Source: a virus. Taken from it: DNA of 27,261 bases. The notes beneath the pieces were generated by a model. The model did no database searches. It was not told the origin of the DNA and was given only the letters and a program-made list of their open reading frames with translations. The translations under genes were made by a program, and so were the position numbers. Numbering within the stretch: the first letter of the stretch is position 1; the number at the start of each line of letters is the position of its first letter. The DNA lies in IMG/VR virus record IMGVR_UViG_3300021093_002288, positions 1 through 27,261 of that record. One strand, 5' to 3'. Below are positions 266 to 26,714 of this stretch, one piece after another.

Positions 266-889
266 ATGGGAAAGAAAAAGAAACCAAAGCAAGAAGAGTT
301 AGAACCAGAAATAGAAATAGAAGTAGAAGAAGTAGAGGAAACTACTAAATCATTAAAACATTATGTTGATAATCAGCGTTTTTGTAAAGAAATGACTGAT
401 TGGAAGAAGTTGGTAAAAGAGGCAGAAGAATGTGATGAAAAGCGTCCTCCCGTTACCGATTATATTGCCGAATGTTTTTTAAAGATTGCTGAACATCTAT
501 CCTATAGACCAAATTTTATTAACTATCCATTCCGTGAGGATATGGTAGGTGACGGTATTGAGAATTGTCTTCTTTATGCTCATAACTTTGATCCAAAAAA
601 ATCAAAGAATCCTTTTTCTTACTTTACCCAAATAATATACTACGCTTTTCTACGAAGGATTGAAAAGGAAAAGAAACAAGCGTATGTTAAATATAAGTCC
701 TTGCAAATGAACGATCCAGATGGTAAATTTGTAAACTGGTTGAAGGACAATCAGGGATCTTCAACTTATACCGAGTTTCTTCAAAAGACTTTTTTCCTTA
801 GCGAATCTGACATTAAAAATTTAGAACCAAAGGAAAGAAAGAAAAGAAAGAAGAAAAAGAAGAGTAAGTCTAACAGGTTATTTGAATGA
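266..889 (+). CDS. 55: gp55, late-transcription sigma factor
   Basis: This 207-residue protein is the T4 gp55-type sigma factor, which directs host RNA polymerase to late promoters with help from the sliding clamp. The conserved core covers about residues 60-146 and contains PPVTDYIAECFLKIAE, the following RPNF and FREDMVGDGIENC segments, then NPFSYFTQIIYYAF and KEKKQ, all typical of the family. It is slightly longer than T4 gp55 (about 185). The extra length is an acidic N-terminal stretch (residues 9-26) and a lysine-rich C-terminal tail ending in Arg-Leu-Phe-Glu. The ATG at 266 sits just after a sigma70-like promoter and has no well-placed Shine-Dalgarno. The gene overlaps gp47 by ATGA. 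NATAAATA octamers elsewhere in the window are its presumed targets. Confidence 0.95.
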   Translation: MGKKKKPKQEELEPEIEIEVEEVEETTKSLKHYVDNQRFCKEMTDWKKLVKEAEECDEKRPPVTDYIAECFLKIAEHLSYRPNFINYPFREDMVGDGIENCLLYAHNFDPKKSKNPFSYFTQIIYYAFLRRIEKEKKQAYVKYKSLQMNDPDGKFVNWLKDNQGSSTYTEFLQKTFFLSESDIKNLEPKERKKRKKKKKSKSNRLFE

Positions 890-1941
890 AAATTGCAGTT
901 ATTAATGATACACACTTTGGAGTCAGAAACGACTCACCGTTTTTCTTAGATCAGTCTCTTGAATTCTTTGAAAAAGTATTCTTTACTTATCTAAAAGAAA
1001 ACAACATTAAAGATGTTATTCACTTGGGTGATCTTTTAGACAGAAGAAAGTTTGTAAATTTTAATACTCTTTCTCAAGTACGAAAGAGATTTTTCAAACC
1101 TCTGATTGATAATAAAATCAAGACATATATTACTATTGGTAATCACGATACATATTATAAGAATACTAATAGTTTAAATTCTATTAATGAATTGTTTTTT
1201 AATGAATCCGAATATATCACGATTGTAGAAAAACCCACCGCTATAGATTATGATGGGTTGTGTATTGGAATTGTTCCTTGGGTAGCAAGAGATAATGAAG
1301 CAGATTGCTTATCATTCATAAGAAAATGTAAATGTCCAATTATTGGTGGCCACTTTGAAATTAGTGGATTTCAAGTAATGAATGGGGTTGTGCACCCTAT
1401 GGGACTAAACAAGTCAATATTTGATAGATTTGAACTTGTATTGTCTGGACATTTTCACCTAAAACAAAATAACGGTAATATACATTATCTTGGCACTCAA
1501 TATGAATTAAATTTTGGAGACATGAATAGTCCAAAGGGATTTCATGTTCTTGATACTGAAACCAGAGAATTGGAATTTGTCAAAAATCCTAACAAGATAT
1601 TTCATCTAATCAAGTATGATGATGCTTCTGAAGATGGATCAAAAAATATTATAAACATTGATTTCAATAAATATAAGAATGGTTTTATCAAAGTAGTAGT
1701 AGCAAACAAATCAAAACCTTTTGGGTTTGATAAATTTATTGATGCTCTTTATTCTTTAAATCCACAACAACTTACTATTGTTGAAGAGTATCAAGATAAA
1801 AATAATCCTATTGACATTGACATATCAGAGGATACAATATCTCTTATAAATAAAGAGATTGACAATTTTGATCATGTTGAAGATAAATCAAAATTGAAAG
1901 TTATTATTAAAGATTTATATATGGAGAGTTTAACAATATGA
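886..1941 (+). CDS. 47: gp47, recombination endonuclease subunit (SbcD/Mre11-like)
   Basis: The product is the nuclease subunit of the gp46/gp47 complex, which processes DNA ends in recombination-dependent replication and host DNA degradation. The calcineurin-like metallophosphoesterase motifs are all present: D8-x-H10 near the start, GDLLDRR with D49, GNHD at 85-88, GGH at 154-156 and GHFH at 188-191. Its 351 residues compare with about 339 in T4. The start overlaps the gp55 stop as ATGA, so the two are translationally coupled. The partner gp46 is one gene downstream, separated by a SET-domain gene. An exact TATAAATA lies inside the 3' end of the gene (1845-1852). Confidence 0.95.
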   Translation: MKIAVINDTHFGVRNDSPFFLDQSLEFFEKVFFTYLKENNIKDVIHLGDLLDRRKFVNFNTLSQVRKRFFKPLIDNKIKTYITIGNHDTYYKNTNSLNSINELFFNESEYITIVEKPTAIDYDGLCIGIVPWVARDNEADCLSFIRKCKCPIIGGHFEISGFQVMNGVVHPMGLNKSIFDRFELVLSGHFHLKQNNGNIHYLGTQYELNFGDMNSPKGFHVLDTETRELEFVKNPNKIFHLIKYDDASEDGSKNIINIDFNKYKNGFIKVVVANKSKPFGFDKFIDALYSLNPQQLTIVEEYQDKNNPIDIDISEDTISLINKEIDNFDHVEDKSKLKVIIKDLYMESLTI

Positions 1942-2843
1942 CACCGAATGAAACCCCCCCTAGTTCAGCTACACCGCCTGTTTTTTCTCAAGAAAATTTA
2001 CAACCACAAGATGGAGATATGTCTCCTGTTACAAATAAACAAGGAATTCCTGTAAGAACTTCCCATAGTTATTACAAAGGAATGTTTGATCATAATACAA
2101 ATTCTTTTGCTAGAAAAGAAAGATTTATTAACAGAACTTATGCTGCTAAATCAGAAATAGATGGATATGGTGTATTTGCAAAGGAAGATATTAAAGCAGG
2201 AGAAATTATTGAAGAGTGTCAGGCAGTTCTGCTAGATACTACTTTTCCTAAGAATAAAGACTGGGTTCTTGGTAGATACTGTATGACTTGGGTTGCAAAT
2301 AGTGAAATTGATAGAACTCATGGACCAACTATGGCTTTGATGTTGGGCCATGGAATGATTTACAATCATTCTGAAATTCCAAATGCATATGTTGTTCAGG
2401 ACAGTTATATGAAAACCTTTAATTTTTATGCACTAACTGATATTCCAAAAGGTACTGAAATAACATGGTACTATGGAATTGGATATGCACAAAGACTTAG
2501 AAGTGAAGGAAAGATTACCCATTCTAAGTTTTTTCCAGATGGAGCTCACACTTTAAATAGTCCAGATAGCAATGCGTTAATGAAGATGATGTCTGCCCCA
2601 GCAAAGGAAATCACTGTAGTAAAAACAGCACAACCAAATGCAATGCAAACAGAAGAAACACAACCTAAAAAGAAGGGGTGTGGTTGTGGGGCAAAGAAAG
2701 TAGAACCTCCTAAGAATGATGAAAAAGCACCATCGTTTAGATCTATGGTAGTTCCAGATAAGATTTTAAATGAAGAAGTTTCGCCGGTAACAACAGAAAA
2801 CACAACGGCTTCAAATGATCAAGTTTCAGAAGGTAAGATTTAA
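1938..2843 (+). CDS. SET-domain protein (putative protein-lysine methyltransferase)
   Basis: The central part, about residues 66-186, reads as a SET domain, a fold that transfers methyl groups from SAM to protein lysines. Visible hallmarks are GYGVFAKEDIKAGEII (76-91), the knot-forming NHSEIPNA (143-150), and IPKGTEITWYYG (169-180) with the catalytic-type tyrosine. There is no cysteine-rich post-SET motif of the eukaryotic kind. Flanking regions look disordered: a Pro/Ser/Gln-rich N-terminus and a Lys-rich tail with a Gly-Cys-Gly-Cys-Gly cluster (247-251) that might bind metal. The start overlaps the gp47 stop as ATGA, and gp46 starts 29 bases inside its 3' end, so it is embedded in the recombination operon. 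The substrate is unknown; host chromatin proteins, RNA polymerase or virion proteins are possible. Confidence 0.8.
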   Translation: MTPNETPPSSATPPVFSQENLQPQDGDMSPVTNKQGIPVRTSHSYYKGMFDHNTNSFARKERFINRTYAAKSEIDGYGVFAKEDIKAGEIIEECQAVLLDTTFPKNKDWVLGRYCMTWVANSEIDRTHGPTMALMLGHGMIYNHSEIPNAYVVQDSYMKTFNFYALTDIPKGTEITWYYGIGYAQRLRSEGKITHSKFFPDGAHTLNSPDSNALMKMMSAPAKEITVVKTAQPNAMQTEETQPKKKGCGCGAKKVEPPKNDEKAPSFRSMVVPDKILNEEVSPVTTENTTASNDQVSEGKI

Positions 2844-4530
2844 AAATTTTGGATCGTTTGGTAATACCTTCACAGAACTAGTATTGGACAAAAATAATAC
2901 CACTCTCATCTGCGGAAGCAATGGGAGTGGTAAGTCCTTTGCTTTCTTAGATTCTATTACTTTTGCTCTTTTCGGAAAACCATTTCGAAAGATAAACATT
3001 CCACAGTTAGCAAACTCAGTAAATTCTAAGAATTGCATAGTAGAGATTGAGTTTACTAAAGGAAATGAAAGTTATCTTATTCGTAGAGGATTGAATCCAA
3101 AGATATTTGAAATTCATAGAAATGGTGAACTTCTGAATCAAGACGCAAAGAGCGTTGATTATCAGGCAGTTCTTGAAGAACAAATCATCAAGATGAATTA
3201 CAAGACATTCACACAAGTTGTGATTCTTGGTAGTTCGTCTTTTGTTCCTTTCATGCAATTGAATGCTGCTGATCGTAGAGCAGTTATTGAAAATATTCTA
3301 GACATAAATGTGTTTAGTTCAATGAACATGGTTTTGAAGGGAAAGATGTCCGCACTTAAAGAATCTTTGAAAGAGATTACCACATCTATCGAGATTCAAA
3401 AAGAAAAGATTCAGTCTAGAAAGGATTTGATTTCTAATCTTGAAAGTAAAAGTAATAAGGACATTGAAAATACAAATCAAAAGATTCAAACGATTGAATC
3501 TGAAATAACTCAACTTCTAACTGAAATAACTGAACTAGAAACATCTATGCAAGATATTGCTTCTAGTATTTCAGACAAAGATAAAGTTTCCAAGAAACAA
3601 TCAGAAGTCAAAACACTGAAGACTAAGATTGGTGCTAATCTTTCTACTCTAATGAAGGACATAACTTTCTTTACAGAAAATGAAACATGTCCTTCCTGCT
3701 GTCAGTCCATCACCAAGGATGTAAAGGAAAATGAACTACAGAAGAGAAACAAGAAGAAAAGTGAATACGAAAAAGCAATTTCAGATCTAGAGAATAACAT
3801 TGAGGAATGTGATTCTAGAATTAAAGAAATCAATGAGATTACTATGTCGGCACAAGATATGAATCTTAAGATTCTTCAAAAGAAAACTTCTATTGATAAT
3901 GGAAAGAAGTTTCTGAAGTCTCTTGTAGAAGATCTAAAGAAAGCATCGACCTCTTCCGATGAAATTGTTTCAGAGAAGGGTAAGCTACAAGAGATGGAAA
4001 CTACTCTTACCGAATTGGAATCTAAGAAAATAGAAATGAAGTCAGAGGAGCATTATTATCAATACGCATCTGATCTTCTGAAGGATACTGGAGTAAAGGC
4101 AAAAATCATCAAGTATTATTTGCCCTTCATGAACAAGTATATCAATAAGTTTCTAACCTCTATGGACTTCTTTGTTCAGTTTATTATTGATGAGGATTTC
4201 AATGAGACAATCAAGAGTCGTCATCGTGATGAAATGAGTTACATGAATTTTAGTGAAGGCGAAAAGATGAGAATAGATCTGGCACTTTTACTGGCATGGC
4301 GCGAGATTGCCAGAGCAAAAAATAGTGTGAATTGTAATCTTTTAATTTTAGACGAAGTTTTTGATTCTTCTCTTGACAGTCTTGGAATGGAAGAACTGAT
4401 GAAACTTCTAAACGCAGTCAGCGATAAGTCAAATATTTATGTAATCAGTCACAAATCAGATCAGTTAGTAGATAAGTTCCAAACTACTATATCTTTTGAG
4501 AAGAAGAATAACTTTAGTAGAATGCTATGA
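2815..4530 (+). CDS. 46: gp46, recombination endonuclease ATPase subunit (SbcC/Rad50-like)
   Basis: This is the SMC-like ATPase that partners gp47. The 571-residue protein (T4 about 560) has the full ABC-ATPase set: Walker A GSNGSGKS at 34-41, a Q-loop region near 130, two heptad-rich coiled-coil arms, and a zinc-hook CPSC at 292-295. These are followed by signature SEGEKMR at 480-486, Walker B ending in D513-E514 and an H-loop histidine at 546. The hook reads CPSCC, with an extra cysteine. The start lies inside the SET gene, and the stop overlaps the next gene by ATGA. Together with gp47 it supports recombination-primed replication. Confidence 0.95.
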   Translation: MIKFQKVRFKNFGSFGNTFTELVLDKNNTTLICGSNGSGKSFAFLDSITFALFGKPFRKINIPQLANSVNSKNCIVEIEFTKGNESYLIRRGLNPKIFEIHRNGELLNQDAKSVDYQAVLEEQIIKMNYKTFTQVVILGSSSFVPFMQLNAADRRAVIENILDINVFSSMNMVLKGKMSALKESLKEITTSIEIQKEKIQSRKDLISNLESKSNKDIENTNQKIQTIESEITQLLTEITELETSMQDIASSISDKDKVSKKQSEVKTLKTKIGANLSTLMKDITFFTENETCPSCCQSITKDVKENELQKRNKKKSEYEKAISDLENNIEECDSRIKEINEITMSAQDMNLKILQKKTSIDNGKKFLKSLVEDLKKASTSSDEIVSEKGKLQEMETTLTELESKKIEMKSEEHYYQYASDLLKDTGVKAKIIKYYLPFMNKYINKFLTSMDFFVQFIIDEDFNETIKSRHRDEMSYMNFSEGEKMRIDLALLLAWREIARAKNSVNCNLLILDEVFDSSLDSLGMEELMKLLNAVSDKSNIYVISHKSDQLVDKFQTTISFEKKNNFSRML

Positions 4531-5258
4531 GTGACGAATTAAATCCACCACCAGTAATAATGGAACATGATGGATTCTTGGTAGTCCGTGATGACCTAAT
4601 TGACGGTGGATCTAAGACCAGATTTATACAACCTCTAGTTAAAGATTTTGTTGGAGATGAATTTGTTTATGGTTCCTCTCCTGCAACTGGGTATGCTCAG
4701 ATATCTTTGGCAAGAGTATGTAAGCATTTCAATAAGAAGTGCATTCTATTCATGGCGAAAAGAAAGATGGAGAATCTTCATCCTTACCAGTTGAAAGCAA
4801 TATCATACGGTGCTACAATGAACTGGGTAGAGAACGGTATGTTATCTGTAACTCAGAAAAGAGCACGAGATTATGTCAACGCAGATCCTTTTACTCGTAA
4901 ATTGTTTCCTATTGGGTTTGATTGTCCAGAGGTATTGGACTCCATACGGGATTTGGCTCGACAACTTCCTGTTCAACCGAAAGAGGTCTGGACGGTAGGT
5001 TCAAGTGGAACCCTTACAAGAGGTCTTCAGGCCGCATGGCCTGATGCTGAGTTTAATTGTGTTTCTGTAGGTCATAAAATGGGGGCGAAGGAGTTGGGTC
5101 GGGCATCAATGTTCAAGTGTGCCATTCCTTTCTTTCAACCCGTCGCAGCGGGAGATGCGCCGCCCTTTCCTTCCGCCCCCACATATGACGCCAAAGCATG
5201 GGCATTCATGAAACAACACGCAAAACCGGGTGCTCTATTTTGGAATGTAGGCGCATGA
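4527..5258 (+). CDS. PLP-dependent fold type II enzyme-like protein
   Basis: The 243-residue sequence resembles the tryptophan-synthase-beta/ACC-deaminase superfamily. A GGSKTRF segment (27-33) places K30 where the Schiff-base lysine of these enzymes lies. VYGSSPATGYAQISLARVC (48-66) matches their conserved Gly/Ser-Asn-Ala helix region, although the usual S-N-H is replaced. VGSSGTLTRG (157-166) looks like the Gly-rich phosphate-binding loop. It is shorter than typical members (about 320-400), so it may be a minimal or non-catalytic version. The extreme 3' end (about 5135-5200) is visibly more GC-rich than the rest. ATGA overlaps tie it to gp46 upstream and to a DNA methyltransferase-like gene downstream, hinting at a role in nucleic-acid modification, but the substrate is unknown. 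Confidence 0.55.
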   Translation: MSDELNPPPVIMEHDGFLVVRDDLIDGGSKTRFIQPLVKDFVGDEFVYGSSPATGYAQISLARVCKHFNKKCILFMAKRKMENLHPYQLKAISYGATMNWVENGMLSVTQKRARDYVNADPFTRKLFPIGFDCPEVLDSIRDLARQLPVQPKEVWTVGSSGTLTRGLQAAWPDAEFNCVSVGHKMGAKELGRASMFKCAIPFFQPVAAGDAPPFPSAPTYDAKAWAFMKQHAKPGALFWNVGA

Positions 5259-6832
5259 AACCATTTTATGAACGAAATAGTTATGTTTTGAACGATCCAA
5301 TCAATGTTCTTTATGAGGACATTGTTTCTATGACAGACTTAGAGTTTGAGCAGTGGGTTATTCAGATGCGTAAGGTAATTCTCAATGTCTGGGACACTCA
5401 CGGTTGTCCTCCTCGTACTGGAAAGAACGAAGATGAAATTATTGACGAGTTCAATAAGATGGTAAGTTATCCTATTCATCTATTTGAATTTACGGATGAA
5501 CTTACAAACACAAAAGATGTCATAATTAATAAGAGTAGAGTGGGTTCTGAAGCAGATCAGTTCTTCTCAAACATGTATAAGACACGAATTAATTATAGTG
5601 AGAATGATACTGGATATTCCATCTATGATTTGTTTGCAGACGACAAGTATCTTCCTAGAATGATAAAGGGTGCTCGACGCCACATTCGTAGGGATTCTTT
5701 CTATAACTTTGCTCTTTCTGCTATTAAGAACGACGCAAAATACTCAGTAATATCTGTTCCTAGTGGAGATGAGTGGATGCAGGCATACTTTACCAATCCA
5801 GAGATCTTTAACGGATATGATTTCATTCTGGAAAAGAATAAGAAGAAGAGCGGATTGAATACTGGATACTTTCAACTTGAGCAGTCCAAGATACTATCAC
5901 TTGATAAAGATTTGATTAATAAATGGAAATCTAAACTTTCGTATCGCCATTATTCCACATTTGAAATAAATAGCATCGAGAGTGACGATGTTTTCCATAT
6001 TCGTGTCTATGAAAAGGGACAGAAGGTATTTCCTAAGTGTTTTCCTTCGTTTAGAATAGGGTATATTCAACCGGCGGTAAACTTCCCACCTCTAACTGCA
6101 AAGTTCCTTTATGAAAAATATACTTCTCACATTACAGGAAGCGGCCTACTTAATATTTACGATCCTTCTAGTGGGTGGGGTGGCCGTCTTCTTGGTTGTA
6201 TGTCTATGTCTGATCGTGTTACTATACACTATATTGGAACTGATCCAAACAGCGAAAACTGGTTTAGCGAGAGTTCGTCAAAGTATCACAACCTAGCAAA
6301 CTTTTACAACACAAAGACATATAGGGGTAACTCTTTCTTTAGCGATACTCATACCTTTGAGATGCATCAGTATGGATCGGAAGAAATAGGTAAGCATATA
6401 GATCGAAAGGTTGATCTCGTTTTTACTTCTCCTCCATATTTTAACAGAGAAGCATACTCCAATGACCCAACCCAGTCATATAAGAAGTTTTCTAGTTATG
6501 AATCTTGGAGAGATGGATTCTTACGACCGACATTAGAAACTTGTGTTAGGTGGTTGAAGAATGACCGTTATCTTCTTTGGAATATTGCTGATATTCAAGT
6601 GGCAGGAAAATACCTACCACTAGAAAAAGATTCAAGAGATATTCTTGAGAGTCTTGGAATGAAATATATTGAAACAATGAAAATGGCAATGGAAGGTATG
6701 CCTGGACAAAATAGATTAGACAAAGATGGCAAACCAAAGTGTAAAAACTTTTGCAAAGTTCAGGGTACATACTTGAAATACGAACCAGTTTTTGTATTCT
6801 ATAAGACTAATGGCGAAGAGAAAAACATTTGA
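5255..6832 (+). CDS. DNA methyltransferase-like protein (amino-MTase type)
   Basis: The 525-residue protein carries a class I SAM-dependent methyltransferase domain in its C-terminal half. The SAM-binding motif I region reads YDPSSGWGGRLLG (about 302-314). The catalytic motif IV is TSPPYF (391-396), typical of N6-adenine/N4-cytosine DNA methyltransferases. Between them a GTDP segment follows a strand, as expected for motif II. The N-terminal half (about 1-270) is not recognised and may bind DNA or a partner. I chose the ATG at 5255, which overlaps the upstream stop as ATGA; an in-frame start at 5198 would overlap by 61 bases. No restriction endonuclease is nearby, so it is probably an orphan modification enzyme, perhaps working with the PLP-like neighbour. 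Confidence 0.75.
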   Translation: MKPFYERNSYVLNDPINVLYEDIVSMTDLEFEQWVIQMRKVILNVWDTHGCPPRTGKNEDEIIDEFNKMVSYPIHLFEFTDELTNTKDVIINKSRVGSEADQFFSNMYKTRINYSENDTGYSIYDLFADDKYLPRMIKGARRHIRRDSFYNFALSAIKNDAKYSVISVPSGDEWMQAYFTNPEIFNGYDFILEKNKKKSGLNTGYFQLEQSKILSLDKDLINKWKSKLSYRHYSTFEINSIESDDVFHIRVYEKGQKVFPKCFPSFRIGYIQPAVNFPPLTAKFLYEKYTSHITGSGLLNIYDPSSGWGGRLLGCMSMSDRVTIHYIGTDPNSENWFSESSSKYHNLANFYNTKTYRGNSFFSDTHTFEMHQYGSEEIGKHIDRKVDLVFTSPPYFNREAYSNDPTQSYKKFSSYESWRDGFLRPTLETCVRWLKNDRYLLWNIADIQVAGKYLPLEKDSRDILESLGMKYIETMKMAMEGMPGQNRLDKDGKPKCKNFCKVQGTYLKYEPVFVFYKTNGEEKNI

Positions 6833-12571: not shown

Positions 12572-12973
12572 ATGGAAATTGATGATGATATTTTTCAAGG
12601 ATTAGGCGTTGAAGTGACACTAAAGAATAAAGAGGACTTCCTTAAGGTAAAGGAGACTCTAACCCGTTTGGGTGTCTCTTCCAAGCACGAAAAGAAACTA
12701 TACCAGTCTTGTCATATTCTACATAAACGCGGTAGGTATGCCATTATGCATTTCAAGGAAATGTTTTTGATGGACGGACTAGAGAGCGATATCAGCGAAG
12801 AAGACGAGATGAGAAGAAATACGATTGTTAAACTTCTCGTAGACTGGGGTCTATTAGATGCCGTAGATCCTACAGAATATGAAAAACAATTAAGTCTTGC
12901 TCGTTTAAAGATTCTTTCACATAAGGAGAAGGGAGACTGGGAACTCGTACCTAAATACCATATAGGAAGGTGA
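12572..12973 (+). CDS. regA: RegA, translational repressor
   Basis: RegA binds the start regions of early phage mRNAs and shuts off their translation. The 133-residue protein (T4 122) keeps family signatures: VEVTLKNKEDFLKVKETLTRLGV, LYQSCHILHKRGRY, HFKEMFLMDGL, then EEDEMRRNTIV and KLLVDWGLL, ending with WELVPKYHIG. GGAG lies six bases before ATG 12572, in an AT-rich leader that could be its own autoregulatory target. In T4 regA lies directly between 62 and 43; here it is cut off from 62 by a late-type cassette plus terminator, and from any polymerase gene by the glycan island. Confidence 0.95.
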   Translation: MEIDDDIFQGLGVEVTLKNKEDFLKVKETLTRLGVSSKHEKKLYQSCHILHKRGRYAIMHFKEMFLMDGLESDISEEDEMRRNTIVKLLVDWGLLDAVDPTEYEKQLSLARLKILSHKEKGDWELVPKYHIGR

Positions 12974-12978
12974 TTTTT

Positions 12979-13821
12979 ATGAATATGATTCAAGCGATAG
13001 GTGCTCCGTTTCCGGTTCAGTATTCTTCTTGCTCAAATAAACTACCAGAACTGTTCAGATGGACAGATGATGATAACCCAGTAAAGGTTTATATTGACCG
13101 TGGTATTGCTCTTGGTTTACAAGAACCAAAGAAAGAAGGAGAAAAGAAAATTGCATGGGTTTGTGAATCCAGAGCAATTTTTCATTTAAGTTATCCAAGA
13201 GAAGCATGGATACATCAATTAGAACAACTTTCAAATACATTTGATTTAATTATTACATCTGAAAGAGAGATGTGTAAATTTGACAATATTGTTTTTTCAT
13301 ATGCAGGTAGTAATTTACCGTGGTTACCGTATTTGAATGCAGTTCCAGAGAAGACAAAAAATATATCTCTTATTGCTTCTCCAAAGAAAATGACATTTGG
13401 TCACGCTATTAGACATTTGATAGCAGAAAAATATTCAAATCAAATGGATATTTTTGGAGGTGCAAATGGCACTAAAAGATTTGGGTTTGGATCCTCTCCG
13501 TGGCCAGATAAATCTGAAGCCATTGTTCCTTATAGATTTTCTTTAGCAATAGAAAACGATTCGTATAAGACATATTATACGGAAAAGATAACAGACTGTT
13601 TTGCTTCTGGTACTATACCAGTTTATTGGGGAACTCCAGACATAGATGAGCATTTCAATAAAGATGGTATAATTAATTTGACAAGTGACTTTGATTTTAG
13701 TAAACTAACTCCAGAATTGTACGAAAGTAAACTTGATGCAGTCAAAGACAATATGGAAAGAGTTAAGACACTTAAAAATGCAGATGATTGTGTATATAAG
13801 ATAATAGAGAGTAGGTTATGA
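12979..13821 (+). CDS. GT10-like alpha-1,3-fucosyltransferase
   Basis: The 280-residue protein has the GT10 signature block at about 185-225: YRFSLAIENDS, then YYTEKITDCFASGTIPVYWG, followed by a phenylalanine-asparagine and GIINL. This block binds the GDP-sugar donor. The N-terminal half would be the acceptor side. ATG 12979 is chosen because AGGAAGG (12964-12970) is well spaced from it; a GTG at 12970 overlaps the regA stop. No signal or membrane anchor is visible, so it should be cytoplasmic. It opens the glycan island and is paralogous to the N-terminal domain of the protein at 14477. Confidence 0.85.
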   Translation: MNMIQAIGAPFPVQYSSCSNKLPELFRWTDDDNPVKVYIDRGIALGLQEPKKEGEKKIAWVCESRAIFHLSYPREAWIHQLEQLSNTFDLIITSEREMCKFDNIVFSYAGSNLPWLPYLNAVPEKTKNISLIASPKKMTFGHAIRHLIAEKYSNQMDIFGGANGTKRFGFGSSPWPDKSEAIVPYRFSLAIENDSYKTYYTEKITDCFASGTIPVYWGTPDIDEHFNKDGIINLTSDFDFSKLTPELYESKLDAVKDNMERVKTLKNADDCVYKIIESRL

Positions 13822-14480
13822 AAACTGAAATTGTTTCTTTTTATTCTGATATCGACAATAGAACATATTATAGTGATCATGCAAAACGACTTAGACAGAA
13901 TTGCATTGAACTAAATATACCGTATGACATTAGAGAACTTCCATCTACCGGAAGTTATAGGTTAAATTGTTTATCAAAACCAAAATTTATTTTGGCAATG
14001 ATGGAAGAAAAGAAAAAACCATTTGTTTGGATGGATGTTGATTCAACCATTCACAATGAACTTAAAGTTTTTGATGATAAAGAAAATCTTTGTGATTTAA
14101 TTTTTGCATATCAATCTATTGTTCCACATAAAGATGTATTAAAACCAAAGGCATCTCCGATTTATTTGAATCAAACTCCAATTGTCTATGAGTTTGTTAA
14201 ATTTTGGATAGATAAGTGTGAAGAAAACTTAAAAAATAATGGTCCTAAAGTGTTTGATCATGAAATTTTATTGGTGGAAGTTTTACCTGCATTTATTCAA
14301 AAATTAAGAGTTGGAGTCTTGACTATGAATTACGCAATATGGCCAGGAACAGATGCACCCAATGGTATGAAACCATACATAACTATGGGTATAGCAGATG
14401 GTGATTCAAAGGAAAAGTCTTTAAAAGAAATGGGACTTTCTGAAAGTAATATTAAATTTAACATGGTAGGAAATATATGA
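13818..14480 (+). CDS. Nucleotide-diphospho-sugar transferase-like glycosyltransferase
   Basis: The 220-residue protein has a GT-A-like layout: an N-terminal strand-rich part and FVWMDVDSTI (about 73-82), where D-x-D would coordinate the metal and sugar nucleotide. FDHEILLVEV (about 145-154) resembles the conserved Asp-x-x region of PF03407-type transferases. The layout resembles the protein at 22620 (Y-x(2,3)-A near the start, then KK-h-h-W-h-D). ATGA overlaps link it to both neighbours. The donor and acceptor are unknown. Confidence 0.65.
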   Translation: MKTEIVSFYSDIDNRTYYSDHAKRLRQNCIELNIPYDIRELPSTGSYRLNCLSKPKFILAMMEEKKKPFVWMDVDSTIHNELKVFDDKENLCDLIFAYQSIVPHKDVLKPKASPIYLNQTPIVYEFVKFWIDKCEENLKNNGPKVFDHEILLVEVLPAFIQKLRVGVLTMNYAIWPGTDAPNGMKPYITMGIADGDSKEKSLKEMGLSESNIKFNMVGNI

Positions 14481-16009
14481 TGCATGATGTTATTGTTGTA
14501 AATGGTGATTACTTTGGATTTGATTTGGAACAAACTAGTTTTACTTTAGAGGTTCAATTTTCTAGAATGGGAGAAAGTAATAGTCCAAATAGAGACTTTG
14601 TTAGTGGTATTCCTGATTTAGTAAAATTTAAAGATAATAAAGCATTTAAAGTATTCATGTGTTCAAATGAACCTTCAAGTTCTCTTAATAGAGAACACAA
14701 TTCTGTTATTACTAAAAATTATTTTAATTATGATTTAATACTAACAACAGAAGAAGAAGTATTATCTAGTACACCAAACTCAGTATTGTTTCCATATGGG
14801 GGAACATGGTTAAATAAAAAATCTGGAGCACATAATGATTCTCTAGGTGTTTTTGATGAGACATCCATTCAAAGATTAGACAAAAAATTTGCTGTTTCGT
14901 TTTTAACTACTAGTCATTTAGGAAAGTCTGGATATAATCTAAGACAAAAAATATGGAATAGTAGAGATGATGTTAAGATACCAAGTGTATTCTATTCTAG
15001 TACACGATATCCTACAGATACTCTTTCTTGTTTGGGTGGAGGAATTTTTTCTACTACCAAACATGATGGATTCGTACCAAATGATGATAAACTTAGTTTA
15101 TTTGATTGTCAGTTTAGTATAGCAGTAGAAAGTAGTAGAGAAAATTCTTATTTTACTGAAAAATTAATAGACTGTTTATTAACAAAAACAGTTCCAGTAT
15201 ATTGGGGTTGTCCGAATATTGAAGAATTTTTTGATAAAAGAGGTATTTTGCACTTTAAAAATTATGAAGAATATCTTAAAATTGTAAATTCTATAGATGA
15301 AACTACATATCAAAAAATGAAACCATATGTTGAAGTAAATTATAAAAAAGCAAAAGAATATGGTAGATGTTTGTTAAAACGAATTTGTGAATTATCAGAA
15401 AAAGTTTACAATGAAAGAACATCTAAAAAAGATATATTATTGACTATTGGAATTCTAACAGTTCCAGAAAGAGAAGATCTTCTGAGAAGATTATTACAAC
15501 GTCTATCAGAAAGCATGTTGATTAGTTTTAATCATAGAGTAGAAATTATTGTTAATAGTGATAATAAAATAAAAACAGTTGGTCAAAAAAGAAATGAAGT
15601 TTTAGATTCAGCAAAAGGAAAATATGTTTGCTTCATTGATGATGATGATATGGTAACATATGATTATCTTTCTAAAATTTTGTATGCTTTAGATACAGAG
15701 CAATATGATGCAGTTTCTTTTTCTGGTCAGTATTATCATTCAGGAAAATCAATAATGCAATTTAACCATGCAAATATAAATGGTGGTCATTTTAAGAAAG
15801 ATGGAGTACAATTTAGACCTTTGAATCATCTTAATCCAGTTTTAACCGAATATGCTAGACAGATTAGATTTCCTGAAAAAAATTATGCAGAGGATTCGGA
15901 TTATTGTGATAAACTATATGAATCTAAATTGATTAAAAATGAATACGGAATAAAATCTGTTATTTACCTGTATTTGTTTGATCCAACAATAACTTTAACT
16001 CAAAGATAA
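14477..16009 (+). CDS. Bifunctional glycosyltransferase: GT10-like plus GT2-like domains
   Basis: This 510-residue protein joins two transferases. Residues about 1-300 are GT10-like, with FSIAVESSRENSYFTEKLID and TVPVYWGCPNIEEFFDKRGI at about 211-251. Residues about 318-510 are a GT-A/GT2-like domain starting DILLTIGILTVPERED, with GQKRNEVLDSAKGKYVCFI leading into a run of four Asp (about 388-391) that contains the metal-binding D-x-D. A later E-D-S-D near 477 may supply the catalytic base. Such a fusion could add two successive sugars. The start overlaps the previous stop as ATGA. The frame is intact and the DNA very AT-rich. Confidence 0.78.
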   Translation: MMHDVIVVNGDYFGFDLEQTSFTLEVQFSRMGESNSPNRDFVSGIPDLVKFKDNKAFKVFMCSNEPSSSLNREHNSVITKNYFNYDLILTTEEEVLSSTPNSVLFPYGGTWLNKKSGAHNDSLGVFDETSIQRLDKKFAVSFLTTSHLGKSGYNLRQKIWNSRDDVKIPSVFYSSTRYPTDTLSCLGGGIFSTTKHDGFVPNDDKLSLFDCQFSIAVESSRENSYFTEKLIDCLLTKTVPVYWGCPNIEEFFDKRGILHFKNYEEYLKIVNSIDETTYQKMKPYVEVNYKKAKEYGRCLLKRICELSEKVYNERTSKKDILLTIGILTVPEREDLLRRLLQRLSESMLISFNHRVEIIVNSDNKIKTVGQKRNEVLDSAKGKYVCFIDDDDMVTYDYLSKILYALDTEQYDAVSFSGQYYHSGKSIMQFNHANINGGHFKKDGVQFRPLNHLNPVLTEYARQIRFPEKNYAEDSDYCDKLYESKLIKNEYGIKSVIYLYLFDPTITLTQR

Positions 16010-16011
16010 AA

Positions 16012-16749
16012 ATGAAAAAAGTTTATATACGACAAACTGCTGGTCTTGGTGATATTTTTTTTCTACAAAAAGCAGCAAATTATTTACTAGAATCTGGTTA
16101 TAATGAAATAATTTGGCCTATTATAAATCATTATGAATATTTAAAAGAATATAATACAAATGACAAAATTAAATTTATTTTAGAAAATGAACTTTCTGAC
16201 GATGTAAAAAAAGTGTACAAAGAAGACAAGATTATATTAGACGAAAACTATCTTTATATACCATTTGATAAATCGGCTCAAATAAAGAGAGATTTTATTG
16301 ATTTTTTAGGAGTAAAATATTCTCTAATAAAAGGTTTAGATTATTCAAATTGGCAAAAATTTTGTAATTTTAAAAGATTTGAAGATAGAGAAGAAAAGTG
16401 CAAACAATATTTTAATATTTCTGATGGTGATGAATTTATTTTTGTTAATTCTATTTTCGCATCTCCTCCCAATCACCACAAAAGAGATATGGTGATAAAC
16501 ACTAATGTTAAAATTGTAGAAAACAAGCATGAATATATGAGTTTATTCAATATATTTGATTACAGTTGGATATTGGAAAACGCAAAGGAAATTCATACTG
16601 TAGAAACATCTATTTGTTATTTGGTCGAAATTCTAAATACTGGTGGAAAATTAAATTTGTATTCTAGAAAAATTGGATATAATACTCAATATGCAAATTT
16701 TGATTATGTTAAAAACATCTATAAAAAAGATTGGAAATATATTTTATGA
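16012..16749 (+). CDS. GT9/heptosyltransferase-like glycosyltransferase
   Basis: The 245-residue product opens with VYIRQTAGLGDIFFLQKAA, the Gly-Leu-Gly-Asp pattern at the start of heptosyltransferase-type GT-B proteins. It has a later IHTVETSICYLVEIL block that resembles their donor-binding end. It is shorter than true heptosyltransferases (about 320), so it may be a reduced member with another function. The DNA is extremely AT-rich and no clear ribosome site precedes it. It overlaps the next gene by ATGA. Confidence 0.55.
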   Translation: MKKVYIRQTAGLGDIFFLQKAANYLLESGYNEIIWPIINHYEYLKEYNTNDKIKFILENELSDDVKKVYKEDKIILDENYLYIPFDKSAQIKRDFIDFLGVKYSLIKGLDYSNWQKFCNFKRFEDREEKCKQYFNISDGDEFIFVNSIFASPPNHHKRDMVINTNVKIVENKHEYMSLFNIFDYSWILENAKEIHTVETSICYLVEILNTGGKLNLYSRKIGYNTQYANFDYVKNIYKKDWKYIL

Positions 16750-17123
16750 TGGTAGAAATATCTATTGGTGAATTAATTGATAAATATACTATACTTGATA
16801 TCAAATCTGAAAAAATAAAAGATGATAATAAGCTGGTAAATGTAATAAAAGAAAAAAATACATTACTTTTATCTTTAAATGAAAATAATTATTTAAATTT
16901 GTTTGATTCTGAAATAAAAGAACTAAAACAAATAAATGAAAAACTTTGGGATATAGAAGATAAAATTCGAATTAAAGAATCTAAGTTAGAATTTGATGAT
17001 GAATTTATTGAGCTTGCTCGTTCCGTGTATATTACAAATGACATGAGATTCAGTATTAAAAATAAAATCAATAAATTGAGTAACTCAAATATGAGAGAGG
17101 AAAAATCCTATTCTGGATATTAA
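16746..17123 (+). CDS. DUF6165-like protein
   Basis: The 125-residue protein starts VEISIGELIDKYTILDIKSEKI, the hallmark beginning of a small helical family (DUF6165, as I recall it) commonly found among polysaccharide genes. The rest is mostly helix with Lys/Glu-rich segments. Its role is unknown; location between a GT9-like and an FkbM-like gene suggests service in glycan assembly. ATG 16746 overlaps the previous stop; an adjacent ATG at 16749 and an upstream TTG at 16731 are alternatives. Confidence 0.65.
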   Translation: MMVEISIGELIDKYTILDIKSEKIKDDNKLVNVIKEKNTLLLSLNENNYLNLFDSEIKELKQINEKLWDIEDKIRIKESKLEFDDEFIELARSVYITNDMRFSIKNKINKLSNSNMREEKSYSGY

Positions 17124-17127
17124 TAAT

Positions 17128-17709
17128 ATGAATAATATAACATGGACATCACAAATTGGTCAAGATAAGTTTGTTATAGATGCTCTTGGTGGTAAAAATA
17201 ATGGTTTTTTTGTTGATTTGGGTGCAGGTCCACCAAGATATATTAGCAATACTTATGTTTTAGAGAAATATTTCAATTGGACTGGAATTGCAGTTGATAT
17301 AAAACATTCTAGTTTAGACCCAAATTCAAAAGAAAATTTTGAAGAATATAGACCAAATACTAATTATGTAATATCTGATTGCTTAACTATTAATTACTCT
17401 GAATTATTTAAAAAATATAATGCACCTCAAGTTATAGATTACTTGAGTATTGATTTGGAACCACCTTCAGTTACATTAGAATGTTTATTCAAAATTCCAT
17501 TTGATGAGTATAGATTTAATACTATTACATTTGAAGTCGATAGCTATAGAGATTGTCCATTAGATAATTCAACGGGAATTGAAAGAATAAATAAATCTAG
17601 AACATTTTTACAAGAAAAAGGATATGTTTTTCTTTTCAATCGTTCCAACTGTGATGATTTTTATGTTCATCAAGATATATTTGATATTTTAAAGAGGAAA
17701 AATAATTAA
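17128..17709 (+). CDS. FkbM-type methyltransferase
   Basis: The 193-residue protein fits the FkbM family of SAM-dependent O-methyltransferases. It begins with the typical SQIGQDKFVID, followed by FFVDLGAG (about 27-34) as the SAM-binding motif I, an aspartate after the next strand (VDIK), and DYLSIDLEPP (about 107-116), the family's Ser-x-Asp-hydrophobic-E segment. It probably methylates a hydroxyl on the glycan made by this cluster. A second FkbM-type gene lies at 23323. Confidence 0.8.
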   Translation: MNNITWTSQIGQDKFVIDALGGKNNGFFVDLGAGPPRYISNTYVLEKYFNWTGIAVDIKHSSLDPNSKENFEEYRPNTNYVISDCLTINYSELFKKYNAPQVIDYLSIDLEPPSVTLECLFKIPFDEYRFNTITFEVDSYRDCPLDNSTGIERINKSRTFLQEKGYVFLFNRSNCDDFYVHQDIFDILKRKNN

Positions 17710-17710
17710 A

Positions 17711-18499
17711 ATGGATATCGTAATACAAGGACCCATATATCCTACAACATATGATACTGCTAAACAATATTTACAATTATCCTTTGTTGAAAGAGTTATA
17801 ATTTCAACATGGAATAATGAATCTATAGAATCGAACGATTCCAATATTGAAGTAGTAAAATCATCTACACCCGAACATTTTGAAACTATGAATTATCAGA
17901 TAGTATCTTCTTTTGAAGGTATTAAAAAAAGTTCATCTGATATTGTAGCTAAAACTAGATCGGACCAGATTATATCAAATACTTCTATTGAAAAAATTAA
18001 TAATTTTGTCAATAAACATATAGATGAAAGTGAAATTTTATATTCAGATGGTACTAAACGAAAAGGTAATATATTTGTAATAGGTATGAATAGACTGTTT
18101 CCATTTCATCCACAAGACCATTTATTTTGGGGTTATAGAGAGGATATGTATAGATTATTCGATATTCCTCTAAAACCAGAAGTGATGTATAGAAATGGTT
18201 GCACAGATTTTACCAAAGTTTTACAAGAAAATATCTATCTTGGGAGTATGTATTTTAAACAATTTTATCCAGAGATACAATTTTATATGGATAATTTTAA
18301 AGAATATCTTTTGATGAATTCTCCAAAAGATGATGCTAGAATTTTTTCACAAAAGATAAGAGATAAAGTATTTAAAGTTTTACCAAAATTTATAGAAATG
18401 AATTGGGTAAAATATGGATGGAATTACTATCCATATAGTTGGTATCCTAGTGTCGGTGAATACTATTATGAGGATTTGTATGGACCATATAAAGATTGA
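17711..18499 (+). CDS. WavE-like glycan biosynthesis protein
   Basis: The 262-residue protein starts DIVIQGPIYPTT and continues with VERVIISTWNNE, SSDIVAKTRSDQ and a DHLFWGYREDMYRLF region, all features of the WavE family first linked to lipopolysaccharide core synthesis in Vibrio cholerae. The R-S-D of KTRSDQ probably marks the nucleotide-sugar site of a GT-A fold. It is a likely glycosyltransferase, acceptor unknown. Its 3' end overlaps the HAD phosphatase gene by 20 bases. Confidence 0.75.
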   Translation: MDIVIQGPIYPTTYDTAKQYLQLSFVERVIISTWNNESIESNDSNIEVVKSSTPEHFETMNYQIVSSFEGIKKSSSDIVAKTRSDQIISNTSIEKINNFVNKHIDESEILYSDGTKRKGNIFVIGMNRLFPFHPQDHLFWGYREDMYRLFDIPLKPEVMYRNGCTDFTKVLQENIYLGSMYFKQFYPEIQFYMDNFKEYLLMNSPKDDARIFSQKIRDKVFKVLPKFIEMNWVKYGWNYYPYSWYPSVGEYYYEDLYGPYKD

Positions 18500-19103
18500 G
18501 TGTGTATTGTTTGATTTGGATGGTGTATTAGTTGATGCATGTGATTGGCATTACGATGCATTAAACGAAGCTTTAAAAACTGAAGGTTATCCTCAAATAG
18601 AACGAAACGAACACTTGACAAAATATAATGGACTTCCAACTAGAGTTAAATTAAAAATGCTGAATATGGAAGATGATGAAATTGAAATTGTTAATAATAA
18701 AAAACAAAAATATACCATTGATTTTATTAGAAATAATGCTAAGATAATGGAAGAAAAAATAGAACTACATGAATATTTGAAATCACAAAATATTAAAATT
18801 TCATGTGTTACCAATTCTATTGAAGAGACAGCTAGAGAAATGTTAATGGCAACTGGTCAATTTGCATATATTGATTTATTGATATCAAATGAGAAGGTTA
18901 AAAAAAATAAACCATATCCAGATTGTTATAATTATGCGGTCAATAATATTGGGGTAAATCCATTAAATTGTCTGGCAGTAGAAGATTCTCCTAAAGGAAT
19001 AGAATCTGCTGTAAATAGTATTGTTGGACATTTATGGGTAGTTTCAGATTCAACTAAAGTTACTAAAAATAATTATTTAAAATTTATAAAAGGTGAAGTA
19101 TGA
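18480..19103 (+). CDS. HAD-superfamily phosphatase
   Basis: The 207-residue protein is a HAD subfamily IA hydrolase. The nucleophile motif FDLDGVLVD (11-19, with D12 and D14) is followed by a helical cap, motif II around VTNS, a lysine in NEKVKKNKPYP (motif III), and VEDSPKGIESA (motif IV), the pattern of beta-phosphoglucomutase-like phosphatases. ATG 18480 places the nucleophile at the usual distance; an in-frame start at 18414 adds 22 unlikely residues. Neighbouring nucleotidyltransferase and GDPD-like genes suggest a shared route to an activated precursor. Confidence 0.85.
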   Translation: MDHIKIECVLFDLDGVLVDACDWHYDALNEALKTEGYPQIERNEHLTKYNGLPTRVKLKMLNMEDDEIEIVNNKKQKYTIDFIRNNAKIMEEKIELHEYLKSQNIKISCVTNSIEETAREMLMATGQFAYIDLLISNEKVKKNKPYPDCYNYAVNNIGVNPLNCLAVEDSPKGIESAVNSIVGHLWVVSDSTKVTKNNYLKFIKGEV

Positions 19104-19816
19104 AAATATTGATACCAATGGCTGGTGAAGGAAGTAGATTTGCAAAAGAAGGATATACTTTTCCTAAACCATTGATTGATGTTGAGGGTAAACCTATGAT
19201 TCAACGAGTGGTTGAGAATCTTGATTTTGATGCTGAATATATTTTTTTAGTTAGAAAGGAACATTTGGAAAAATATTCTGGTTTAAGAACTACACTAACT
19301 AGAATAACAAATGGTAGATACAAGGTTGTTGAGGTTGATGGATTGACAGAGGGTGCTGCATGTACAGCATTGCTCTCCAAGGAATATATCAACAATGATG
19401 AGGATTTACTGATTGCAAATTCTGACCAAATAATAGAATATAGTTCAGAAAATTTCAACTATCTCAAGAACTTCACTGCTGCCGATGCAGTAGTTTTTAC
19501 TTTTCATGCTGTGCATCCCAAGTGGTCTTTTGTTAAGACAAATTCGCGTGGAGTTGTCACCGAAGTTGCAGAGAAGAATCCGATATCAGATATCGCAACC
19601 TGTGGTATCTATTGGTATCGCAGAGGTTCTGAGTTTGTTTCCTCTGCCGAGACTATGATTCAGAAGAACATACGAGTAAATAATGAGTTCTATATCGCCC
19701 CCGTCTATAATGAATTGATTCAGTCTGGAAAAATATTGATTCCTTTCTTTGTGTATAGAATGTACGGAATAGGAACTCCCGAAGATTTAAATTCTTTCCT
19801 AGGTAGAAAGCAATGA
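19100..19816 (+). CDS. Sugar-1-phosphate nucleotidyltransferase
   Basis: The 238-residue protein has the nucleotidyltransferase start ILIPMAGEGSRFAKEGYTF followed by PKPLIDVEGKPM, where the Gly-rich loop binds NTP and the PKP lysine contacts phosphate. LIANSDQII (about 112-120) supplies the metal-binding aspartate. The compact length fits dTDP/CDP/UDP-sugar pyrophosphorylases without a hexapeptide tail. Base use shifts within the gene: AT-rich at its 5' end, clearly GC-richer from about 19320 on. ATGA overlaps tie it to HAD and GDPD-like genes. Confidence 0.85.
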   Translation: MKILIPMAGEGSRFAKEGYTFPKPLIDVEGKPMIQRVVENLDFDAEYIFLVRKEHLEKYSGLRTTLTRITNGRYKVVEVDGLTEGAACTALLSKEYINNDEDLLIANSDQIIEYSSENFNYLKNFTAADAVVFTFHAVHPKWSFVKTNSRGVVTEVAEKNPISDIATCGIYWYRRGSEFVSSAETMIQKNIRVNNEFYIAPVYNELIQSGKILIPFFVYRMYGIGTPEDLNSFLGRKQ

Positions 19817-20250
19817 CAATTATATCTCATCGTGGTAATCTAGACGGCAGAAATCCCAATTGTGAAAACAATCCAACTTATATCCAACAGGCATTAGATC
19901 GGGGGTATGATGTTGAGGTTGATGTGTGGTATGTTGATGATCAGTTTTTTCTTGGACATGATGCTCCGACATATCTCGTTGAACCTTCTTGGTTTCAGGG
20001 GAAGCCACTCTGGTGTCATGCAAAGAATCAAGAAGCCTTTGAAGAGATGATTGTCTGTTCATATGGCATAACTTGCTTCTGGCATGAAGCAGACAAGATG
20101 ACTTTGACCAGTGATGGATTTTTATGGATGTATCCTGGCAACCACTCTCGTCTTGGTGTAACGGTGTGCTTAGGAAAACCAGAGGGGGATATTCCCGAAA
20201 TGTGGGGAGTTTGTACAGACTATCCTTTGTTATGGAAAAATATTAGATGA
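19813..20250 (+). CDS. Short GDPD/PI-PLC-like phosphodiesterase
   Basis: The 145-residue product looks like a reduced glycerophosphodiester phosphodiesterase barrel. ISHRGNLDG (H6-R7), YDVEVDVW (E35, D37) and LGHD (H49) correspond to the catalytic His, metal-binding acidic pair and second His of that family. At about 145 residues it is well short of the usual 230-260, so part of the barrel is missing or compacted; the frame itself is intact. It could trim or transfer a glycerol-phosphate or phospho-sugar substituent. Higher GC than the transferases around it. Confidence 0.7.
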   Translation: MTIISHRGNLDGRNPNCENNPTYIQQALDRGYDVEVDVWYVDDQFFLGHDAPTYLVEPSWFQGKPLWCHAKNQEAFEEMIVCSYGITCFWHEADKMTLTSDGFLWMYPGNHSRLGVTVCLGKPEGDIPEMWGVCTDYPLLWKNIR

Positions 20251-20975
20251 AAATTGCTATATGTTTATCTGGTATTGACCGATGTTTTAATGAAACAGCA
20301 CCTTTTTTAATGGAAAATATGGTAAAACCATTAAATGCTGATGTATTTATTCATACATGGAAATCTGATTCTTTGTCTGATAGATTTGTGGAAAATAAAA
20401 ACAATGAAAAATTATACGCTAACATAGCAAAAAAATATGAAATAGAGAATTTTAATTCTAATTGGAATTTTCTAAAATGCACACAAAAAGCAAATATAGT
20501 TCCAATGTATTATAGTATATACAAGAGTTTTTCTATTGTTCCTGATGATTATGATGTAATTATTAGAAGTAGATTTGATTCTCTTTATATAAATAAATTT
20601 ATTATACCAAAAATAATACCAAATAATGTTTATATTAGATTGAATGGATGGAACAAAAATAATTATGTTTCTAGAAATAATTTTATTTTAGAAGGTTATA
20701 ATTTACCTTTTGTTGCTGACAATTTTGCTATTGGTGACCTTCATTCAATGAAGGAATATTCCTCAGTTTATCTTGGTCTAAATACTTATATAAGAAGTAA
20801 CATTCCAGAGTGTTGTTTGGCAGAGCAATTACATTATAAAAATATATCATATCAATGGTTTAATAACTTAGAATATATGTCATTAATATCAATAGATAAT
20901 AATATTTTAAAATTTGAAAGTGATTATAAAGAAAAAAAACATATTTACATTGAGAGGAAAAATAATGATATTTAA
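20247..20975 (+). CDS. Putative glycosyltransferase, unknown family
   Basis: The 242-residue protein begins KIAICLSGIDRCFNETAPFL and has NADVFIHTWKSDS (about 30-42) and DVIIRSRFDSLYIN (about 105-118). The R-x-R-x-D segment is typical of a transferase group found in phage and polysaccharide clusters. The fold is probably GT-A with that aspartate in the donor site. The 3' part is very AT-rich and contains a chance TATAAATA (20588-20595). ATGA overlaps it with the GDPD-like gene; its last codons carry the ribosome site of the next gene. Confidence 0.6.
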   Translation: MKIAICLSGIDRCFNETAPFLMENMVKPLNADVFIHTWKSDSLSDRFVENKNNEKLYANIAKKYEIENFNSNWNFLKCTQKANIVPMYYSIYKSFSIVPDDYDVIIRSRFDSLYINKFIIPKIIPNNVYIRLNGWNKNNYVSRNNFILEGYNLPFVADNFAIGDLHSMKEYSSVYLGLNTYIRSNIPECCLAEQLHYKNISYQWFNNLEYMSLISIDNNILKFESDYKEKKHIYIERKNNDI

Positions 20976-21597
20976 TGACAAACATGGTACATCTATACCT
21001 AAAAATAGTTTTAATGTTTCTATAGATTGCGATTCAATGCGACAAGTAAACACTAGAATTTTGGGGGGAGGAGCTTCCCAAAATTTCTCTGCATTCAAAT
21101 TGTTAGAAAATTACATTGCTTATGAAAATCCAAAATATGTAGTTGAAATAGGTTCGCAAAAAGGTGGTTTATCTGTTTATCTTGGAACTATAGCATGTGT
21201 GACTGAGCAGTTTTTGTTTCATACATTTGATATTACTAAATCTGATTGGAATAATAGAGAACATGAAGGAGCGGGTCATTGGTTTGAAAAAATGGAATCA
21301 ATATGTCCATTTTGTAAATCATTCGAATCTGATATCTTCTCAGAATTTTCCTTTAACACTATTTTTGATAATATTAAAAAATATAAAACATTAATTATAT
21401 GTGATGGTGGTAATAAATCTAAAGAAGTTAATATGTTTTCATCTATATTAAAAAGTGGAGATATGATTATGGCACATGATTTTGGACATGAAATATTTGA
21501 TTATCATATTGATTATAATATTTTACAACCACATGAGCCTTTTAATCAAAGATTTATAGATAATAAAACATTGTTTAAAACATTTATTAAAAAATAA
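20965..21597 (+). CDS. Class I SAM methyltransferase (TylF/CmcI-like)
   Basis: The 210-residue protein has VVEIGSQKGGLSVYLG (about 58-73) as a SAM-binding motif I, a following FHTFDIT (motif II aspartate), LIICDGGNKSKE (about 137-148) and MIMAHDFGHE (about 162-171). This arrangement occurs in metal-dependent sugar O-methyltransferases and CmcI-like enzymes. ATG 20965 is supported by GAGAGGA at 20952-20958; a start at 20914 is less likely. It probably methylates a sugar of the glycan. Confidence 0.7.
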   Translation: MIFNDKHGTSIPKNSFNVSIDCDSMRQVNTRILGGGASQNFSAFKLLENYIAYENPKYVVEIGSQKGGLSVYLGTIACVTEQFLFHTFDITKSDWNNREHEGAGHWFEKMESICPFCKSFESDIFSEFSFNTIFDNIKKYKTLIICDGGNKSKEVNMFSSILKSGDMIMAHDFGHEIFDYHIDYNILQPHEPFNQRFIDNKTLFKTFIKK

Positions 21598-21609
21598 AGG
21601 ATATTTACT

Positions 21610-23321: not shown

Positions 23322-23322
23322 T

Positions 23323-23925: not shown

Positions 23926-24088
23926 ACAAATTTGGTTAATTATTTATTTAAACAATGAAATATATGGATCTTTATCTATAGTTAAAAGTAATATAAATAG
24001 TGTAAAGAGAAACTATATAAAAGAACTTTCTTCTATAGGTAAAGTATCGTTTAAAGTGACAAACAAAGAACCTTTTTATGGATGGTAA
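23918..24088 (+). CDS. 56-aa orphan protein, unknown
   Basis: A short gene fills the gap between the FkbM-type and GT2 genes. ATG 23918 overlaps the end of the preceding gene by eight bases, and TAA is at 24086-24088, inside the start region of the next gene. The peptide begins NKQIWLIIYLNNEIYGSL, with an aromatic/aliphatic N-terminal strand, and ends in KEPFYGW. It looks like a small folded domain rather than a random frame. An exact TATAAATA (23992-23999) lies inside it. Confidence 0.6.
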   Translation: MNKQIWLIIYLNNEIYGSLSIVKSNINSVKRNYIKELSSIGKVSFKVTNKEPFYGW

Positions 24089-24090
24089 TT

Positions 24091-26705: not shown

Positions 26706-26706
26706 G

Positions 26707-26714
26707 GATAAATA
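26707..26714 (+). promoter_or_regulatory. Possible late promoter octamer GATAAATA
   Basis: GATAAATA fits NATAAATA but ends only five bases before the ATG at 26720, so a transcript from it would start at or past the start codon. The overlapping AAGGA (26704-26708) may simply be a ribosome-binding site. The promoter call is weak. Confidence 0.3.

Follow-up and report, generated by a model that had tools for sequence, protein, structure and literature searches.

The closest described relative of the protein considered here is vSET (A612L) of Paramecium bursaria chlorella virus 1 (PBCV-1), likewise a virus-encoded SET methyltransferase and the best PDB match by both sequence and fold. However, vSET consists of a core of 119 aa and has eukaryotic histone H3K27 as its substrate, whereas the phage protein, at 301 aa, is extended at the N-terminus, contains a CxC cluster, ends in a docking-like tail and is encoded in a nuclease operon of a phage whose host is presumed to be a bacterium. 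SET domains are also present in other tailed phages, namely, in free-standing proteins of uncultured tailed phages (e.g., BFVD A0A6J5L8Y2 and A0A6J5SSB1) and in Stenotrophomonas phages Ps15, for which a SET ORF was reported (PMC9025141), and Yut2. Unlike the protein under study, these are mostly about 100–165 aa in size, no FRSM tail (see below) was seen in them, and in the IMG/VR loci examined they lay outside the slot between gp47 and gp46. Bacterial SET proteins (Bacteroidota, Gammaproteobacteria and others) share fold and motifs with the slot proteins, and some Aquirufa proteins carry the CxCxxC insertion of other slot SETs; however, they are about 100–280 aa, none matched the tail of the window protein, and they have no gp46 or gp47 neighbours.

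As for the nuclease itself, the gp46/gp47 complex of phage T4 is thought to perform double-strand-break resection (PMC3016280). A small gene overlapping both of its neighbours likewise fills the slot in cyanomyoviruses (S-PM2 and others), but it encodes a DUF3110 protein, a different family without SET domain or FRSM. Nbs1/Xrs2 is a third factor of the eukaryotic Mre11 complex that docks on Mre11–Rad50 via a short motif; its likeness to the protein described here is in proposed role only, with no sequence relation shown, and it is not a methyltransferase.

An earlier note on this DNA had regarded protein-lysine methylation by a phage protein as rare. This was borne out for sequenced phages: a tblastn search with three phage SET queries against 50,697 INPHARED records gave matches only in one metagenomic phage of 735 kb (two records) and, as a weak match, in Yut2, whose protein is a real SET (Pfam E-value = 7e-10). 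Uncultured phages have many SET genes: a single profile scan of IMG/VR yielded 56 SET loci, and UniProt has entries from uncultured Caudovirales whose names identify them as SET proteins. Thus, phages with a SET gene are uncommon, but they are not without precedent. No report of a phage SET in the gp47–gp46 setting was found in the literature searched, and it is the slot and the FRSM microprotein that are apparently without earlier record, SET proteins in phages being already on record.

Gene Organization of the Locus

The window, that is, the whole stretch of DNA analyzed (IMG/VR record IMGVR_UViG_3300021093_002288, whole record, 27,261 bases), is probably a genome fragment. Its conserved gene string gp55–gp47–SET–gp46 and the features of the SET protein are given in Table 1. 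As the earlier note had described, the SET-domain gene lies between gp47 and gp46 and overlaps both, by 4 nt (ATGA at the gp47 stop) and 29 nt, respectively. It has the marks by which a cargo ORF of the T4-type gp55–gp47–gp46 module is recognized, namely, overlap with the gp47 stop and the gp46 start and the same slot in relatives. In 16 loci of the first scans, the string was intact as far as the contigs extended, with the genes for the pyridoxal-phosphate-type enzyme and the DNA methyltransferase next in the longer ones. The latter two genes overlap by ~60 nt. Throughout the SET clade to which the window belongs, they follow gp46, whereas they do not do so in the patchwork clade, in which SET, microprotein and empty slots are mixed.

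Table 1. Coordinates of the gene string and of the features of the SET protein (positions in the window unless another contig is named)
Feature	Position	Strand	Evidence
gp55, late sigma factor, first gene of conserved string	266..889	+	
gp47, Mre11/SbcD-like recombination nuclease subunit	886..1941	+	PHROG SbcD-like, E 3e-90
SET-domain protein, 301 aa, ATG start	1938..2843	+	ORF call, Pfam
SET domain, residues 76–180	2163..2477	+	Pfam; invariant alignment columns; AF2 pLDDT mostly >90
Cys-Gly-Cys cluster, residues 248–250 (KKKGCGCGAKK)	2679..2687	+	Sequence, slot-SET alignment
C-terminal peptide FRSMVVPDKI, residues 267–276, homologous to free slot microprotein of SET-less relatives	2736..2765	+	Motif scans, alignments
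SET 3′ end/gp46 5′ end overlap	2815..2843	+	ORF coordinates
gp46, Rad50/SbcC-like subunit	2815..4530	+	PHROG SbcC-like, E 1e-160
Pyridoxal-phosphate-type enzyme (PHROG 'threonine dehydratase'), downstream neighbour conserved in clade of the window	4527..5258	+	
DNA methyltransferase (N6/N4 type), downstream neighbour conserved in clade of the window	5198..6832	+	
Degenerate SET ORF of contig L140	5244-6014		

Properties of the SET Protein

The product of the ORF is a genuine SET-domain protein (Pfam PF00856, E-value = 4.2e-16, 59.7 bits against a cut-off of 22.4, profile positions 1–105 of 105). The SAM-site motifs GYG (GxG, residues 76–78) and NHSEIPN (residues 143–149) were invariant or near-invariant among slot SETs, and the catalytic tyrosine, Tyr179 in EITWYYG, was invariant in two alignments. 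In the alignment of 22 slot proteins, GxG, NHxxPN and the WYYG tyrosine were invariant or nearly so, and all three were found in 34/34 complete, non-degenerate slot SETs. Loss of SAM-binding residues, which the earlier note had named as evidence against an enzyme, was looked for accordingly: the motifs are intact in the window protein, and NHxxPN and the catalytic tyrosine were lost in the basal relatives L140 and L332. The slot SET protein is probably a SAM-dependent protein-lysine methyltransferase, as judged from these motifs. The nearest solved proteins by sequence were PBCV-1 vSET (E-value = 7e-11) and Plasmodium PFL0690c, and the top Foldseek match was vSET (3kma; E-value = 1.6e-9, TM = 0.84 by target length); the chemistry of the window protein would be most like that of vSET. 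In the AlphaFold2 model built from a 43-sequence alignment, most of residues 31–180 had high confidence (block means 87–99), whereas confidence was poor beyond about residue 190. The low-confidence stretches, residues 1–20 and about 192–301, are probably disordered, in agreement with the disordered ends described earlier. The SET protein matched none of the PADLOC defence-system families.

In the clade of the window, dN in the SET core was 0.05–0.23 versus dS of 0.77–1.55 (e.g., 0.069 versus 0.973), and the linker was much less constrained than the core; dN/dS of gp47 and gp46 on the same pairs was 0.05–0.17. The large excess of dS over dN in the SET core, together with a gene order that recurs in numerous contigs from many metagenomes, led us to reject a chance ORF or an assembly artefact.

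The Cys-Gly-Cys cluster, which had been called unusual, is indeed present, but CxC or CxxC occurred in 28/34 complete slot SETs and is thus common, although not universal; it is a recurrent but dispensable feature. It sits about 69 residues past Tyr179, in the low-confidence arm. In post-SET zinc sites of the SUV39/NSD/MLL type, an NHxC cysteine is accompanied by an adjacent post-SET CxCx4C; both are absent from the window protein, in which the motif reads NHSE, so that a post-SET zinc site was ruled out for the cluster by its position and the missing NHxC cysteine. Many other slot SETs have a second cluster, CxCxxC, in the SET insert region, which the closest relatives of the window protein are without. 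In L098, L107 and L021, for instance, it precedes NHS, as in SETs of Aquirufa (Bacteroidota), e.g., L202. This second cluster is possibly a zinc site in an unusual place.

Occupants of the gp47–gp46 Slot

The earlier note had proposed a survey of T4-like phages for the same insertion, and the gp47–SET–gp46 order was found in dozens of IMG/VR contigs. When the SET, motif and gp46 scans were combined, 103 distinct gp46 proteins were obtained. The slot contained a SET plus F(R/K)SM tail in 34 of the 103 (including the fragment L154 and the degenerate L140 and L332), a SET with a diverged or stopped tail in 4 and a microprotein only in 23; it was empty, with gp47 directly joined to gp46, in 30, and the remaining slots held other cargo or were cut off. 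Since 30 of the 103 loci have neither SET nor tail, neither is essential to the nuclease. The slot of Methylophilales phage Melnitz-2 is empty as well, and that of L351 holds an ORF (locus about 2529-3203) that runs up to the gp46 start and encodes a 2OG-Fe(II) oxygenase (Pfam E-value = 2e-12), possibly another protein-modifying enzyme.

Because relatives have unrelated occupants or empty slots, the position between gp47 and gp46 is a variable site, and the SET gene is its occupant in the phage group of the window. The insertion is not an isolated case: a unique insertion was rejected, and the SET recurs in the slot across the group as a conserved gene. All slot SETs grouped in one clade (SH-aLRT 98), separate from the remaining phage SETs and from most bacterial ones; the three bacterial sequences that fell inside this clade are short (<40% of columns filled), and their placement is not trusted. 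In the empty-slot and microprotein phages, no SET was found elsewhere in the contigs searched, which are fragments.

The FRSM Peptide in SET Tails and Microproteins

A feature that the earlier note had missed is the C-terminal tail. Slot SETs carry, just upstream of gp46, the motif F-R-S-M-(V/I)-V-P (FRSMVVPDKIL in the window), and SET-less relatives encode in the slot a microprotein of 34–51 aa ending in FRSM(V/I)VPE.(I/L)L or a close variant, like the SET tails. A 26-base degenerate pattern for FRSM(V/I)VPE(K/N), run over 2.9 million IMG/VR contigs, gave 54 exact matches, all 54 immediately upstream of gp46. gp47 was recognized before 52 of them, and the other two contigs (L086 and L154) were cut before gp47. 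The matches represent 28 different proteins with SET plus tail and 9 different microproteins; in none of the 54 was the tail fused to another enzyme. When 26 whole contigs were searched with a looser motif, it occurred at most once per contig; it was absent from ten empty-slot contigs, and the reversed control gave no match. No relatives of the tail were found in annotated phages, and a search with the 41-aa microprotein gave only Lactococcus matches at chance level.

Over 34 distinct tails, the motif used five Arg, four Ser and two Phe codons, and its distance to the gp46 start varied from about 25 to 80 nt. These varied synonymous codons and the variable distance indicate that the constraint acts on the peptide. 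In the window, the FRSM peptide lies outside the gp46 overlap; it is the last nine residues of the protein that overlap gp46, and their conservation was discounted, since it is not independent evidence. Three SETs of one clade have diverged tails (L097, FKTRSIT; L105, FRERTI; L116, FRGRTIE), and in L079 an in-frame stop separates the SET from an intact tail frame, which reflects either a recent split or an error.

Gain and Loss

On the gp47+gp46 tree, SET presence required at least 7 changes and tail presence 4, and on the gp46-only tree, the numbers of changes were 10 and 9, respectively. L076/L078, nested deep in the SET clade, have lost the SET and kept the tail, and in another clade, L101/L103 and L085 have probably done likewise. 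In a basal microprotein-only clade, the SET was either never present or lost. The basal L140 and L332 contain a degenerate SET, in which NHxxPN and the catalytic tyrosine are gone and the Pfam score (13.7–17.5 bits) is below the cut-off; a fold remnant, a CxC cluster (CNCGKNKR) and an FKSM tail are retained. The slot proteins of these two are 74% identical, compared with 94% for their gp46, so the degenerate SET evolves faster than gp46.

Proposed Mechanism and Alternative Explanations

The earlier note had suggested that the location couples the SET protein to DNA recombination or to host takeover. A tie to recombination is probable, and the strongest evidence for it is the FRSM peptide common to SET tails and SET-less microproteins. 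We propose tentatively, and with somewhat less than even confidence, that the SET protein is a lysine methyltransferase tethered to the gp46–gp47 complex via this peptide. The SET protein would be produced along with the nuclease subunits of its operon, from overlapping and presumably translationally coupled reading frames, and FRSMVVP, on its flexible C-terminal arm, would be a docking peptide for gp46, gp47 or a further member of this recombination machine. The SET domain would then methylate a lysine on the complex or on a protein met at DNA ends (phage recombination or host nucleoid proteins), and methylation may tune end resection or host-DNA breakdown; in relatives without the enzyme, the 34–51 aa microprotein would be the docking peptide alone, still serving the complex. 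A docking peptide is the simplest reading because the peptide occurs at one genomic place, between genes whose products form a complex, with or without the enzyme, and is translated by overlap with both; if it does dock on the complex, the SET would be an enzyme brought there. The disorder modelled for the tail counts against tethering, as do the 30 loci that have neither SET nor tail and the three SETs with diverged tails, and a scan for gp46 and gp47 residues tracking tail or SET presence had only 4–6 independent pairs.

Of the alternatives, a host-takeover enzyme of the vSET kind, which would act on nucleoid or transcription proteins of the host and, by methylating them, silence or open its chromosome, and for which the slot would be only a convenient cargo site, is considered unlikely but is kept as a rival. 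The nearest solved relative is vSET, and upon infection with PBCV-1, H3K27 methylation in the host increases and its transcription is repressed (PMC3089700); moreover, the slot holds unrelated cargo in other phages (DUF3110 or the oxygenase of L351), and many unrelated phages have free-standing SETs of ~135 aa elsewhere. However, this leaves unexplained why the slot retains the C-terminal peptide after SET loss and why, in the contigs searched, the SET of this group is found only in the slot. Retention of the tail, alone in the microproteins and together with a fold remnant and CxC cluster in L140/L332, which lack NHxxPN and the catalytic Tyr, would suit a SET fold serving mainly as a structural adaptor, with docking conserved and catalysis optional or already lost. 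Against this, which we hold to be distinctly unlikely, stand the full catalytic set in all 34 other complete slot SETs and the low dN in the SET core.

Two further explanations concern the tail itself. It could be conserved for nucleotide reasons, i.e., gp46 translation, the SET gene being otherwise neutral cargo, as the tail extends up to or into the gp46 start and its last ~9 residues overlap gp46; but FRSM lies upstream of the overlap at a variable distance and with synonymous codon changes, and empty-slot phages manage with a 4-nt gp47–gp46 overlap, which makes this very improbable. Equally remote is docking of the peptide, and hence of the enzyme, on a phage machine other than gp46–gp47, e.g., the gp45 clamp. 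Many microproteins have ADELLFE or ADEFLF beside FRSM, which we take to resemble short hydrophobic-acidic clamp-binding tails, and gp55 of the window ends in RLFE; nevertheless, the ADELLF part is missing from the tail of the window protein and many others, and FRSM is the common part.

Were tethering to the nuclease to hold, it would provide a direct case of protein-lysine methylation acting on the recombination machine of a bacterial virus, and phage Mre11–Rad50 would gain a small dedicated partner, which has so far been known mainly in eukaryotes. The full proposal, in which a phage Mre11–Rad50 complex has the FRSM peptide, free or methyltransferase-linked, as a hitherto undescribed third component and the nuclease is regulated by lysine methylation, with a pseudo-enzyme in one lineage, is possible but doubtful. 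Nature has itself removed the SET repeatedly while leaving the peptide in place, which amounts to an experiment in which docking and catalysis are already separated.

Other Features of the Window and Related Contigs

The C-terminus of the window gp55 is very lysine-rich (KERKKRKKKKKSKSN) and is followed by RLFE, a possible clamp-binding end. The lysine-rich tail was considered as a histone-tail-like, SET-specific substrate and found no support, as it is equally lysine-rich in SET-less phages; gp55 tails rich in lysine are seen throughout this phage group. In L134 (1735-4965), gp46 is apparently interrupted by an ORF of 359 aa that is similar to a homing or very-short-patch endonuclease, and in the single contigs L083 (6001-7782) and L009 (5059-6751), the gp46 frame is split by a stop or frameshift that may be a sequencing error. 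The window also contains, at positions 12970-25272, a long series of genes for glycosyltransferases (GT10 and GT2), FkbM-type methyltransferases and nucleotide-sugar enzymes, a striking cargo for a T4-like phage, and, at positions 25719-27261, genes for two proteins with collagen-like repeats, with tandem repeats of 9, 18 and 27 bases.
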